Below, one piece after another: positions 21,033 through 29,835 of a stretch of 32,615 bases of DNA; within the stretch, counting starts at the first letter, position 1; each line of letters starts with the position of its first letter. Source of the stretch: Candidatus Bathyarchaeota archaeon (GTDB lineage: Archaea > Thermoproteota > Bathyarchaeia > TCS64); the NCBI GenBank assembly GCA_014729945.1, contig WJJC01000059.1, positions 1 through 32,615 on the forward strand. The letters run 5' to 3'. A program made the translations under genes and the position numbers. The notes below the pieces were generated by a model. The model searched no databases and was not told where the DNA came from. It saw only the letters and a list, made by a program, of their open reading frames with translations.

Positions 21033-21389
21033 CTATTGGAGTAGTTTGACTCCAAGCTTGTTTAGGGTCTCCTCTGTTGGTTCTCCCCACTTATTCCATC
21101 CTCTGAGCCGGTAGATCTCCTCCACCTGCTTCTTGTAGAGCTCCCTTGGAATCTTTTTTCCTTTTATCAAACCCGCGATGCTCTTCTCTTGGAAGAATCT
21201 CTCGGGAAGTTTATCATCATCATGGCTGCGTCCTTTCCTTAAGTTGTAGAGCCTGCTCAGTGTCTGCATTCTGGCTTCCGCGGTTATTAGGTCCTCTGGT
21301 GTATACTCTATCCCTGTTGCCGCGTTCAAGAAGGGTGCAAGTCTATCAAAGCCATAGAGTAGGAAGTCACATACTATCAGTCTATTTCT
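21033..21389 (-). pseudogene. Aldehyde:ferredoxin oxidoreductase, C-terminal fragment
   Basis: The frame encodes only the last part of a tungsten-dependent aldehyde:ferredoxin oxidoreductase. It reads RNRLIVCDFLLYGF, LAPFLNAATGIEYTPEDL, LSRLYNLRKGR, DDDKLPERFFQE and then YRLRGWNKWGEPTEETL. This is the usual closing domain, ending with the RGWxxxGxPTxExL signature. A full enzyme is about 600 residues; only about 119 remain. The frame opens out of the integrase fragment at about 21385-21395 with no start codon there; a TTG at 21329 could start a 98-residue product. The pterin and iron-sulfur domains are missing, so the fragment cannot be active. It is taken as a remnant. Confidence 0.8.
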
Positions 21390-21750
21390 TTCATAGTTTG
21401 TAGGAATGAGGCATAAAAGTCATTGTGTACTGCTATTAGTTGATCAAGTTCTTTCTCTGATGGGATATAGGGTAGCGGTGCATCTTTTTCTCTCAATGTC
21501 TCAAATTCATAATCGAATCCCTTCCAGTTGCACCAATCACGATAAGCATAGAAACCAATATTCTTTCTACGATTTATCCAGTCAGCTTCTTTAATTATCT
21601 CAGTAACTTCATCAGAATCCCAGAGATTACCTCTGTTCCTGATTGTTCTAAGTACCTTAATCTTTGTCTTGATTGTAGATGGTTTTAGTTGTTTATCTCT
21701 TAGGTATTCTCTGAATGAATCCTGAGAATTTTCTAGGGTTGTATTATAGA
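21377..21750 (-). pseudogene. Archaeal tyrosine recombinase (integrase) fragment
   Basis: Too interrupted to be called as a gene, but the minus-strand frame reads clearly: NSQDSFREYLRDKQLKPSTI, KTKIKVLRTIRNRGNLWDSD, WINRRKNIGFYAYRDWCNWK and LPYIPSEKELDQLIAVHN, ending FLQTMKEID and TGA at 21377-21379. This is the core-binding domain of SSV-like or XerA-like archaeal integrases plus the first helix of the catalytic domain (IPSEKELDQLIA). The catalytic residues (Arg, Lys, HxxR, Tyr) are all missing. The frame stays open upstream into the T-arm of the adjacent tRNA-Leu gene, as happens when an element with its attachment site inside the integrase gene integrates in a tRNA. No start codon is present. 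It is a remnant of an integrated element. Confidence 0.78.
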
Positions 21751-21857
21751 TGCGGGGGGAGGGACTCGAACCCTCGAAGTCCTAAGACACGAGATGTCTT
21801 ATCCCGAAGCATCGGATCTTAAGTCTCGCCCCTTTGACCAGCCTCGGGTACCCCCGC
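21751..21857 (-). tRNA. tRNA-Leu (anticodon TAA), with intron
   Basis: Minus strand: acceptor GCGGGGG pairs with CCCCCGC. Anticodon stem CGAGA, loop CTTAAG (anticodon TAA), then a 22-base intron (21796-21817), then loop base A and the other stem half TCTCG. A class II variable arm with stem GTC/GAC follows, then T-arm GAGGG TTCGAGT CCCTC. The discriminator is A (21751). The intron is at the canonical position 37/38. No CCA is encoded, unlike the other two tRNA genes here. A TATA-like TTTTTAATGG (minus strand, about 21881-21890) lies about 28 bases upstream. Confidence 0.93.
21796..21817 (-). other. Intron in tRNA-Leu at position 37/38
   Basis: The 22 bases separate anticodon-stem halves CGAGA and TCTCG. 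They form a small hairpin (ATCCGA with TCGGGAT, one bulged base) that can be part of the bulge-helix-bulge recognised by the archaeal tRNA-splicing endonuclease. The borders may be off by one or two bases. Confidence 0.85.
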
Positions 21858-25992: not shown

Positions 25993-28900
25993 ATGAGTAA
26001 AGTAATTAACGCAATTAAATTCGGTTTACTACCACCAGACGAGATTAGGAGACTAAGCGTAGTTGAGACCAACACCAGCGACACCTACGATGAAGACGGA
26101 GCCCCAATTGCAGGAGGTCTTATGGACCAAAGATTAGGAACATTAGAGCCGAGACAGCGGTGTCGTACATGTGGAAACATCGCAATCAATTGTCCGGGAC
26201 ACTTTGGGCATATCGAGTTAGCTGTACCCGTGGTTCACGTAGAGTTCGCTAAACCGGTATACAAAGTGCTGAACGCGACCTGCCGAGGATGCGGAAGCAT
26301 ACTACTGGACCCTGAACTTAAGGAGAAGCTTCAGGAGCAAATGGGTAGAGACATCGATTTATTCGGTAAAGTAAGTGAAGAGACCGAGGATGAGATCAAG
26401 AAACAAGCGAAGAAGTACAAGAGATACAAAGAGTGCCCATATTGTGGTATGGTCCAGACGAAGATTAAATTCAATAAACCAACCAGTTTTGTTGAGATCG
26501 AGAAAGAGGAATTCTTTGATGAAGGTTTGGAGGAAGAAGAGGAGGTAACCCGGAGACTCACTCCAAACATGATCCGGGAATGGTTTGAGCGTATTTCAGA
26601 TGAAGACCTAGAAATGCTGGGATATAATCCATCTGTAGCCAGACCAGAGTGGATGATATTGCAGGTAATGCCTGTTCCTCCGGTAGATGTCAGACCAAGC
26701 ATCATACTAGAGTCAGGAATAAGAGCCGAGGACGATCTGACACACAAATTAGTAGATATAATCAGAATCAATCAACGACTCAGGGAAAACATAGACGCCG
26801 GAGCCCCTACATTAATCATTGAAGACCTCTCTGAGCTACTTCAGTACCACGTTACAACCTACTTCAACAACGAGGTATCAGGAATCCCCCCAGCGAGACA
26901 CCGCTCAGGCAGGACATTAAAGTCACTAGCCCAGAGGCTCAAAGGAAAAGAAGGCAGATTCCGAGGGAATCTAAGCGGGAAACGTGTAGACTACTCTGCT
27001 CGTACAGTAATTAGCCCAGATCCAAACTTGGATATTAACCAGGTAGGAGTACCAGTGCACATAGCATCAAAACTCACAGTACCAGAGGTTGTCACTGAGA
27101 GAAACATTGAAGCAGTTAAGAAACTGGTCATTAATGGACCAAATAACCACCCGGGAGCATTATACGTCATAAGACCCGACCAAAAACGCATAAGACTCGA
27201 ATTCGTACAAGACCGGACATTAATCGCAGAGAGTATTGAACCCGGATTTATTCTTGAAAGACACCTTAAGGACGGCGACATCGCCCTCTTTAACCGACAG
27301 CCAAGTCTCCACAGGATGAGTATCATGGCTCACAGGGTCAAGGTATTACCTTACAAGACGTTCAGGATGCACCTCACTGTCTGCCCACCCTACAACGCGG
27401 ACTTTGACGGAGACGAGATGAACCTGCATATACCTCAGAGCAAGGAAGCCCAGACAGAAGCACGTATGCTAATGCAGGTACAGGACCAGATTCTGAGCCC
27501 AAGATACGGCGCACCAATCATAGGCGCTGGAAAAGACTACATCAGCGGAGCATACCTCCTCACAAGAAAGGAGACCATGTTGAAAGCTAATGAAGTTGGT
27601 AAGCTTCTAAGCTATATAGGGTATCAGGGTGAGGTACCTGAGCCAACAATCTCTGAGCCTGAACCGTTATGGAGCGGTAAATCAATCTTCAGCATATTCC
27701 TTCCAGCTGACTTTAGCTTCGTCAGCAGGGCAAACATCTGTATGCACTGTGCTGAATGCAAGTATGAGGCATGTGAATACGATGCCTATGTAATGATACA
27801 AAATGGAGAACTCAAGTCAGGTGTCATAGACAAGAACAGCATCGGCGCTGAGCGCCCAGACACAATCTTCCACAGAGTCATAAAGGACTATGGAACAGAC
27901 GCAGGTCATGACTTCCTAAACGGTGTATCCCGGCTTATCAACGGTTTCCTGACTTTGACGGGATTCACATATAGCTATGACGAGCTTACACTTGATGAAC
28001 CGGAGATCAAGGGAATAGACCAAGTAATGAGGAAGATGGAGAAAAGCGTTGAAAAACTCACAGAGGAGTATGAATCAGGTGAGTTAGAGCGACTACCTGG
28101 ACAGACAACTCAGGAGAGCTTTGAGATCAAGGTAATGAATGAGTTAGCCAAAGCCAGAGACGAGGCCGGTGAGATCGTTCAGAGTGGACTTCCCCTTGAG
28201 AACAGTGGAATAATCATGACTCGAAGCGGTGCTCGTGGAAGCAGTCTAAACATTGGCCAGATGATGGGCAGTGTAGGTCAGCAGTCTATCAGGGGTGAGC
28301 GAATTATGAGAGGTTACGAGGATAGAACCCTACCCCATTTCAAAGAGAACGATACTATGCCCGTAGCTAGGGGATTCGTATATGACTGTTACAGGGATGG
28401 ATTAGATCCCCTAGAGTTCTTCTTCCACGCAATGGGTGGGCGAGAAGGCCTAGTAGACACAGCGGTACGTACCCAGCAGAGTGGTTACATGCAGAGACGA
28501 CTTATCAACGCTCTAGAGCATCTGCGAGTGGAGTACGATGGTACCGTTAGGAACAGTATCGGGGATATTGTTCAGTTTACATATGGTGAGGACGGTATTG
28601 ACCCAAGTAAATCTGACCACGGTGTAGCAGTCAACGTTTCCCAGTTAAGGGATAGAACAAAGATCAACATGGTCGAGGGTGAGAACGCTTCAGAGGCGTA
28701 TATACAGAAAAAACTGGATGCAATCCAGACAGATATACCCGAATTACTGAAACAGGAAATGTACCGGAGACTAACCGAGGAGGATCTCACTGAGAAAGCA
28801 GTGGATGAGGTAATCGCCTCAGTGCTAAGAAACTATGACTACAGCTTGGTGGAGCCAGGGGAGGCAGTTGGAATAGTCGCAGCCCAGTCTATAGGAGAAC

Positions 28901-29835
28901 CGGGTACACAAATGACCCTCCGAACTTTCCACTATGCAGGAGTTGCCGAGCTAAACGTAACCTTAGGTCTCCCAAGACTAATTGAGATCGTTGACGCCCG
29001 TAAGAGTCCATCAACACCGGTAATGGATATCTACCTCGATGAGAAGCACAGGAAATCCGAGAAGAAAGCCCGTGAGGTAGCCCAGAAACTAACCTACACG
29101 ACCATCGATGATGTGATAGACAGCGTTAATGTTGACCTCAGGAAGGAGGCTGTAAGAATACGTATTGATCCTGGGCGTATGGAAACTCTGGGAGTATCTA
29201 TAGATGATGTAGAATCAAGAATCCCCTATAGTTACAGTAAGCCAGATGAATACGAATACTTGATACCTCTGGAGGAGGATAAATCCCATGACCCTGAGCC
29301 AATAATCAAGAATGTCTCAGAGGCAAGCATAAAGGGAATCGAGGAGATCAACAGAGTGCTTACAACCATAGAAGATGGGGAATGGCTCATCAGAACGGAT
29401 GGAAGTAACCTAGAGGGTGTACTACGAGTCGAGGGAATAGACCCCAGTAGGACGACTACTAATAACGTCCATGAGACGGCAGCTATATTCGGTATCGAGG
29501 CTGCGAGAAACTCCTTGGTGAAGGAAGCTCACGCCGTATTGACCGAACAGGGATTGGATGTAGATATACGCCACGTAATGCTCGTTGCTGACATTATGAC
29601 CCAGACCGGTGAAGTACAGCAGATCGGACGCCACGGAATCAGCGGAGAGAAATCAAGCGTACTGGCCAGAGCAGCTTTTGAGCTGACCATCCAGCACTTG
29701 GTGGACGCTGCTATTAAAGGTGAAACCGATCCACTTAAAGGGGTAATTGAAAACATAATCGTCGGACAGTCGATGCCCCTAGGCACAGGGAGCGTTGAAC
29801 TGTTCATGACACAGAGAGGAAAAAGCGATGAGTAG
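25993..29835 (+). CDS. rpoA: DNA-directed RNA polymerase subunit A, A' and A'' fused
   Basis: A 1280-residue largest subunit that contains both the A' part and the A'' part in one frame. A' landmarks are the zinc sites CRTCGNIAINCPGHFGHIEL and the CRGCG...CPYCG pair, and the catalytic NADFDGDEMNLH (N468-H479) whose three Asp hold the active-site magnesium. The A'' part starts at roughly residue 900-930 and includes GEAVGIVAAQSIGEPGTQMT (about 955-974) and FHYAGVAELNVTLGLPRLIEI. Most archaea split this protein into two genes; unsplit forms are known in Thaumarchaeota and some related lineages. The frame has no stop across the usual split site. It overlaps eL30 by eight bases. Confidence 0.96.
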   Translation: MSKVINAIKFGLLPPDEIRRLSVVETNTSDTYDEDGAPIAGGLMDQRLGTLEPRQRCRTCGNIAINCPGHFGHIELAVPVVHVEFAKPVYKVLNATCRGCGSILLDPELKEKLQEQMGRDIDLFGKVSEETEDEIKKQAKKYKRYKECPYCGMVQTKIKFNKPTSFVEIEKEEFFDEGLEEEEEVTRRLTPNMIREWFERISDEDLEMLGYNPSVARPEWMILQVMPVPPVDVRPSIILESGIRAEDDLTHKLVDIIRINQRLRENIDAGAPTLIIEDLSELLQYHVTTYFNNEVSGIPPARHRSGRTLKSLAQRLKGKEGRFRGNLSGKRVDYSARTVISPDPNLDINQVGVPVHIASKLTVPEVVTERNIEAVKKLVINGPNNHPGALYVIRPDQKRIRLEFVQDRTLIAESIEPGFILERHLKDGDIALFNRQPSLHRMSIMAHRVKVLPYKTFRMHLTVCPPYNADFDGDEMNLHIPQSKEAQTEARMLMQVQDQILSPRYGAPIIGAGKDYISGAYLLTRKETMLKANEVGKLLSYIGYQGEVPEPTISEPEPLWSGKSIFSIFLPADFSFVSRANICMHCAECKYEACEYDAYVMIQNGELKSGVIDKNSIGAERPDTIFHRVIKDYGTDAGHDFLNGVSRLINGFLTLTGFTYSYDELTLDEPEIKGIDQVMRKMEKSVEKLTEEYESGELERLPGQTTQESFEIKVMNELAKARDEAGEIVQSGLPLENSGIIMTRSGARGSSLNIGQMMGSVGQQSIRGERIMRGYEDRTLPHFKENDTMPVARGFVYDCYRDGLDPLEFFFHAMGGREGLVDTAVRTQQSGYMQRRLINALEHLRVEYDGTVRNSIGDIVQFTYGEDGIDPSKSDHGVAVNVSQLRDRTKINMVEGENASEAYIQKKLDAIQTDIPELLKQEMYRRLTEEDLTEKAVDEVIASVLRNYDYSLVEPGEAVGIVAAQSIGEPGTQMTLRTFHYAGVAELNVTLGLPRLIEIVDARKSPSTPVMDIYLDEKHRKSEKKAREVAQKLTYTTIDDVIDSVNVDLRKEAVRIRIDPGRMETLGVSIDDVESRIPYSYSKPDEYEYLIPLEEDKSHDPEPIIKNVSEASIKGIEEINRVLTTIEDGEWLIRTDGSNLEGVLRVEGIDPSRTTTNNVHETAAIFGIEAARNSLVKEAHAVLTEQGLDVDIRHVMLVADIMTQTGEVQQIGRHGISGEKSSVLARAAFELTIQHLVDAAIKGETDPLKGVIENIIVGQSMPLGTGSVELFMTQRGKSDE

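Follow-up and report, generated by a model that had tools for sequence, protein, structure and literature searches.

Remnant of a tyrosine integrase beside tRNA-Leu(UAA) in a bathyarchaeal contig and a probable clade of self-splitting PF00589 integrases

The window, by which we mean the whole 32,615-base stretch of DNA analysed here, carries next to a tRNA-Leu(UAA) gene the core-binding domain of a tyrosine integrase that, judging from sequence comparison with its relatives, is probably a decayed member of a clade of self-splitting integrases of the PF00589 family. The likely explanation of this arrangement, in which we have good confidence, involves integration into tRNA-Leu of an element with the attachment site (attP) inside its integrase gene (int), loss of the start of that gene and a subsequent deletion. 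This explanation draws on the exact end of the homology at FLQTMKE, the lack of a start before codon 95, the open reading frames (ORFs) restored by joining element ends at 10 of 14 loci in relatives, the database protein P0072, the integrase tree and a similar remnant in the relative G006. It further appears fairly probable that self-splitting originated a second time, in a PF00589 clade of Bathyarchaeota which has attP in the 5' coding region and in the sense of the tRNA, targets several tRNA genes and the RNase P RNA gene, and acts as a one-way switch through loss of a leader of about 7-19 codons rather than of a domain. This clade of self-splitting integrases holds more interest than the remnant itself.

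Under the proposed scheme, a small mobile element of Bathyarchaeota would insert into tRNA-Leu(UAA). On the free circle, the ATG of int would precede attP by about 7-19 codons, and the gene would continue across attP, which duplicates the tRNA 3' end and reads in the tRNA's sense, into the core-binding and catalytic domains. Integration would swap the int start for the host tRNA, so that the gene body would come to lie beside the tRNA without a start codon and the int start, together with an att, would land at the far end of the element. A later deletion would then have taken out the catalytic half of int together with the remainder of the element and its far att, and would have cost an aldehyde ferredoxin oxidoreductase (AOR) gene its 5' part, joining the int codons for KE to the AOR 3' end. 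For the window itself, we infer this history of integration and deletion from the relatives; the loss of the start would presumably switch the integrase off.

At 90 % identity, the rpoB gene of the window matches that of G001 (the genome from which the Bathyarchaeota record L001 comes), which places the window in Bathyarchaeota. This rpoB is a single 1109-aa gene adjoined by a single 1280-aa ORF (25993-29835) that we named by eye as the largest RNA polymerase subunit, neither gene being split; positions 1-125 are the 3' end of an archaeal 23S rRNA gene. The first-pass annotation was right to place a tRNA-Leu(UAA) next to the integrase fragment: the gene scores 42 bits with the Rfam tRNA model, its intron, with bounds set by hand, is at the canonical place, and the orthologous tRNAs at the same locus in relatives are called Leu(taa), with the intron at nt 40 or 41. 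ARAGORN missed the window gene when run without introns and misread it as Glu when introns were allowed.

Nine relatives (G001, G002, G005, G006, G008, G009, G016, G020 and G026) have the tRNA-Leu upstream of rpoB. The contig of G009 stops at the tRNA, and seven of the eight others carry different sequence after it, ranging from about 190 bases (G001, G005) to 3.1 kb (G002). A decayed integrase of the same kind is present at the orthologous tRNA-Leu of G006, the contigs of which overlap at the tRNA by exactly 141 bases, and it accounts for the one short match obtained here among the tblastx matches listed at tRNA-Leu. In blastn comparisons with the window, the post-tRNA sequences of the relatives, some of them only about 190 bases long, matched solely in the tRNA and its edge; within these comparisons, no insertion-free relative had the window's sequence after tRNA-Leu. 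G007, which is not among the nine rpoB-linked relatives, has a similar tRNA followed by other sequence. In G026 (L166, G026:C131, 2264-3031), about 660 bp separate tRNA-Leu(UAA) from an 89-nt duplicate of its 3' portion; the 165 bases past this copy match the sequence after the tRNA in G020 at 71 %; G020 apparently holds the site without the segment. On visual inspection, this segment resembles a toxin-antitoxin pair. The tRNA-Leu(UAA) site looks like a hot spot. The genomes of the relatives are mostly drafts, several of them broken at these tRNAs: contigs of G001, G005, G006 and G009 (4 of 9 relatives) end within about 200 bases past tRNA-Leu, and many integrase matches lie near contig ends, a hint of strain variation there.

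Sequence similarity solidly identifies the fragment as the core-binding domain of a tyrosine integrase. It is 75 % identical over 129 aa to P0096 (309 aa), 74 % to P0099 and 64 % to P0072, these full-length homologues being 306-323 aa long. In a large protein search that takes in only proteins of 0.55-1.75 times the query length, 8 of the 17 candidates matched at E<=1e-3 (best 5e-49), and two were named integrases. The first-pass assignment of the minus-strand reading to an integrase core-binding domain is borne out by these matches, although the homology covers 21386-21750 and does not extend to 21377. The Pfam match of the fragment is weak (E 0.02, under the cut-off), such that Pfam alone would miss the integrase, and NCBIfam yielded no match. 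An AF2 model of the remnant built from 16 sequences had a mean pLDDT of 77.9, and the top Foldseek matches to it were tyrosine recombinases, all weak (best E 0.06, none <=0.001). Searches of viral contigs with two queries found no relative, and named phage and plasmid collections gave distant integrase matches with no record covering 80 % of the query. Among 398 genomes from the phylum, 12 had a match to P0099 at E<=1e-60, the best being that of G001 itself at 53 % identity; hence there is no close intact copy among these 398 genomes.

Table 1 Features of the integrase remnant and its surroundings in the window, and RNase P RNA target sites in relatives
Feature	Position	Strand	Evidence or remark
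tRNA-Leu(UAA) with 22-nt intron (21796-21817); 3' part is the presumed att	21751-21857	-	Rfam RF00005, 42.2 bits
TAG stop closing the integrase frame	21782-21784	-	inside tRNA variable arm
tRNA 3' end in the integrase frame (DFEGSSPSPR), att-coded peptide	21751-21781	-	near-identical DFEGSSPSSR in P0001, P0004, P0072
Integrase core-binding domain remnant, ends FLQTMKE, no catalytic domain	21386-21750	-	homology to P0096, P0099, P0072
Junction: two codons (I-D) and TGA in the integrase frame	21377-21385	-	AOR-side sequence, other frame
AOR 3' fragment, about 116 of about 630 codons, no 5' part	21033-21383	-	PF01314
RNase P RNA target site	L184, 9527-9829	+	RF00373
RNase P RNA target site	L186, 10402-10704	-	RF00373
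RNase P RNA target site	L197, 7226-7522	-	RF00373

The minus-strand frame is open from the D at 21781 to the TGA at 21379-21377. Its upstream limit is the TAG in the variable arm of the tRNA (Table 1), and therefore it spans the T-arm and the acceptor stem, as had been claimed from the first reading, and not the whole tRNA. An open frame of this full length is improbable by chance (matched in 1 of 20000 mononucleotide shuffles); the ten open tRNA codons are too few to mean much and by themselves give no evidence of att geometry. We accordingly dropped the openness of the T-arm as proof of an att overlap, as too weak alone. No ATG, GTG or TTG is in frame between the TAG stop and codon 95 of the remnant, the first in-frame start being a TTG at that codon. 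At the other end, the integrase homology stops at 21386, and the final codons I-D and the TGA are downstream AOR sequence. FLQTMKE marks the break point, where the full-length homologues continue into the catalytic domain: this domain (R...HxxR...Y), present as PF00589 in the relatives, is absent from the window, and no homology follows FLQTMKE. A second copy of the tRNA 3' end was not found in the 32,615 bases when as many as 8 mismatches in 31 bases or 4 in 20 were tolerated; the far att copy may have been deleted or may lie beyond the window. With neither a catalytic half nor a nearby start codon nor a second att, the fragment is a dead remnant, and the first-pass description of a decayed gene deprived of its catalytic domain was correct.

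The AOR fragment matches the PF01314 (AFOR_C) profile over positions 295-384 of 385 (E 1.6e-25). Homology to the AORs of the relatives starts at residue 2 of the ORF at 21036-21383, and AOR thus begins within one or two codons of FLQTMKE, in a different frame. Among the matches listed, identity to the relatives' AORs is 28-44 %; 34 of 36 genomes match, and no close AOR was found among them, the best listed match having 44 % identity. The AOR gene may accordingly have been either cargo of the element or a neighbour in the host. A single deletion would be the simplest reading of the integrase-AOR junction.

With the L001 integrase as the query, matches at E<=1e-8 were obtained in 53 of 101 relatives; 60 chosen places around integrase matches were taken first and further loci were added later. 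Two layouts recur. In layout A, the 3' end of a tRNA gene (tRNA-Leu, Ser, Met, Thr or Gln) reads in sense into the integrase N-terminus; in layout B, the integrase gene ends with its stop codon 18-71 bp short of the 3' end of a facing, convergent tRNA. A scan for direct repeats of at least 18 bases gave 14 distinct loci with one copy upstream of int and one beyond. When the ends were joined by script, an ATG-started frame ran through att into the integrase in 10 of these 14 loci, nine of the joined ORFs being intact (319-326 aa from the first ATG) and the tenth decayed. The ATG lies about 7-19 codons before att (30 in the decayed G101 copy if its first ATG is taken), and in both G087 and G101 an ATG is present 18 codons ahead of att. 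Frames opened by an upstream ATG crossed att in the int frame at 10 of 13 loci, compared with 4 of 26 other frames (Fisher p 0.0003), or 7 of 10 compared with 4 of 20 (p 0.015) with one locus per related group; the 14th locus, G019, was omitted from this comparison and from the joining of ends, and is counted as a miss among the 14. The window itself contains one att copy. The att-inside-int geometry inferred from it in the first-pass annotation is supported by the joined loci of the relatives (10 of 14) and not by the window alone.

The four loci that failed the ORF test are G095 L190, where a 44-bp repeat pair is present and the int frame is closed; G094 L185 and G056 L186, the repeat pairs of which are doubtful; and G019 L077/L158, where an att copy is paired with tRNA-Met and int is decayed. 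In L158 (G019:C28, 16327-18191), a third, partial tRNA-Met copy, fused to an integrase, lies between two tRNA-Met genes and has ATG where the tRNA has ATA. The RNA gene at att was called by program in six of the ten passing loci (L182, L184, L192, L193, L194 and L197), whereas the tRNAs of L168 and L181 were judged by eye from the T-arm; in L163 the contig begins inside the RNA gene, and L198 has no assigned target. Shine-Dalgarno-like motifs were seen by eye ahead of the ATG in L163, L182 and L197. The piece with the start at the far end of the element crosses att and stops soon after in nine of the ten loci, and in L182 it reaches the contig end. For the element of G087, no empty site was present among the loci examined. 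In L184, L186 and L197, att is at the 3' end of the RNase P RNA gene (Table 1; positions set by hand); of these three, L184 and L197 have an int frame that starts at an ATG and crosses att, and L186 does not. The L184 site (G094) holds two integrases in a row, the second of them located after the far att and using another frame. In L075 (G015:C14, 2563-2811), the core-binding part of a decayed integrase continues in frame into the last residues of the protein, as would follow a deletion between two GFEYV-coding repeats.

Database homologues offer a further view of the leader. Among the best 120 of 1437 homologues, 60 have at least 20 aa ahead of the core, and 47 of these 60 carry a peptide resembling the sense-strand T-arm in one of three frames. 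P0072, known here from its protein sequence, reads MKGNKSILTKGK and then DFEGSSPSSRTY, where the window tRNA gives LVS-stop and then DFEGSSPSPRIY; it looks like the free (attP) form for the window's own tRNA-Leu att.

These observations bear on the alternatives. An element of the classical kind, with int wholly downstream of att and starting just after the tRNA, would make the openness of the T-arm a matter of chance, which is conceivable given how little weight ten open tRNA codons carry alone. The tRNA-Ser(CGA) members L068 and L071, with a GTG at +12 after the tRNA and another tRNA frame, would fit such an arrangement, as would the ATGs just past att in L194 and L184. However, the first start in the window comes only at codon 95, the scanned stretch of L074 contains none, the frame is opened by an ATG ahead of att in 10 of the 14 loci flanked by repeats, and the leader of P0072 appears to run through att. 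We consider this alternative unlikely.

A different possibility, which we regard as more doubtful still, is that integrated copies continue to express the integrase, with the tRNA promoter driving it and translation beginning at a start codon inside the tRNA, so that nothing is switched off. Integrated copies do have starts at the T-stem within the tRNA (ATG in G001 L066, GTG in G001 L067 and G006 L069, both in G066 L092), and many database homologues are called as starting with MGSNP or VGSNP. Such expression would be impossible in the window, given that no in-frame start precedes the TTG at codon 95, and also in L074 as far as scanned, and it offers no account of the ATG-bearing segment across att. 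Together with the in-frame ATG, GTG or TTG found between the start of att and the core at 7 of the 10 passing loci, the starts within tRNAs nevertheless imply that int may not always be silenced by integration.

Finally, retention of the remnant as a domesticated, putative DNA-binding protein rather than debris is very improbable: although its frame is intact over the full length, its sequence is well conserved and core-binding-only proteins recur (5 of the 8 matches in the large search, which favours short proteins; 81-122 aa, contigs of at most 3089 bases), the remnant has no start codon near its beginning and an abrupt out-of-frame junction with AOR, and most of the database pieces finish with unrelated tails, an outcome to be expected from decay or from contig ends. 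N-terminal integrase pieces also occur in the relatives, some of them cut by contig ends.

The self-splitting integrase that we favour as the source of the remnant can be placed by family and phylogeny. All seven proteins scanned, namely, those of five relatives with layout A, P0001 and P0002, matched PF00589, with no second integrase family reaching E<=0.1; the corresponding part of the protein is missing from the window fragment. The SSV1 integrase, used as a control, matched PF16795 (E 1.5e-61) and PF07935, and BLASTP between the L001 and SSV1 integrases gave an E of 5.2. The L001 integrase has seven relatives of solved structure, the best being the archaeal XerC-like 4a8e (E 2.9e-10) and the third XerA 5hxy. 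Given PF00589 rather than PF16795 in the relatives and the BLASTP result against SSV1, we rejected an SSV-family reading of the fragment. The first-pass term SSV-like thus holds, through the relatives, for the principle of attP inside int and fails for the family and for the orientation, which is sense and not antisense.

In a midpoint-rooted tree of 41 rows, the layout A rows (18) and layout B rows (11) fall on opposite sides: 12 rows including all 11 B group at 91/76 and 24 rows including all 18 A at 89/89, both supports being under the tool's mark of 95/80. The window groups with P0001, P0002, P0007 and the integrases of G001 and G006 (100/99), on the split-gene side. Eleven rows are unlabelled and one (G095) is labelled Ax; with these counted as others, A needs 7 changes and B 2. 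The A label was given by hand to L163, L168, L172, L184 (two rows), L186, L197, L198, the window and P0001, and the tRNA calls of L183 (A) and of L096 and L196 (B) are doubtful. The tree thus sets the split-gene integrases apart from the intact-int relatives with moderate support. A split-gene clade in another catalytic family, next to a group with intact int, would open the origin of the strategy to comparative testing. The window itself suggests how such insertions decay and can carry off part of a neighbouring gene.

Integrase remnants are left beside archaeal tRNA genes after element loss. The window is like such tRNA-side remnants but ends in an AOR fragment without a second boundary; int(N) and int(C) pieces are described in the available portion of PMC8371274. 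In a literature search of limited coverage, we found no description of a self-splitting PF00589 integrase clade in Bathyarchaeota and no paper on RNase P RNA genes as archaeal integration targets. Such a PF00589 integrase in Bathyarchaeota is absent from the accessible sections of PMC6972569, PMC10848311, PMC11705971, PMC11697101, PMC3293823, PMC8813620 and PMC13107129.

The closest analogues in principle are the SSV-type 'suicidal' integrases, which, in the excerpted text of PMC8371274, have attP inside int and tRNA targets, keep the catalytic domain in int(C), occur in archaea only, belong to PF16795 and have one origin; the conclusions of that paper, as excerpted, present them as a system of hyperthermophilic archaea. 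Excerpts of two further papers report that the pTN3 integrase splits at tRNA-Leu (PMC5495485) and that a split SSV1-like integrase is present in the thaumarchaeon Nitrososphaera evergladensis (PMC6563490). With SSV1, pTN3 and pT26-2, the relatives of the window appear to share an attP within int, division of the gene upon integration, tRNA targets and retention of the catalytic domain in int(C). The two systems differ in family, PF16795 for the SSV type and PF00589 for the relatives of the window, and in geometry: in SSV1, att is at int codon 63 and antisense to the tRNA, whereas in the window group it follows about 7-19 codons and int reads in the same direction as the tRNA, with the C-terminal side of the gene left next to the tRNA. 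In pTN3, the rebuilt tRNA is said, in the excerpted part of PMC5495485, to be parted from its original promoter; the att of the window group is a tRNA 3' end. By family, the relatives of the window resemble instead the classical pNOB8-type and XerA/XerC-like integrases of PF00589. The pNOB8-type integrases, however, keep int intact and outside att, whereas the window has no start on the tRNA side until codon 95, a lack that decay could explain too. The layout B group appears to keep int intact as classical integrases do, and the group to which the window belongs does not.
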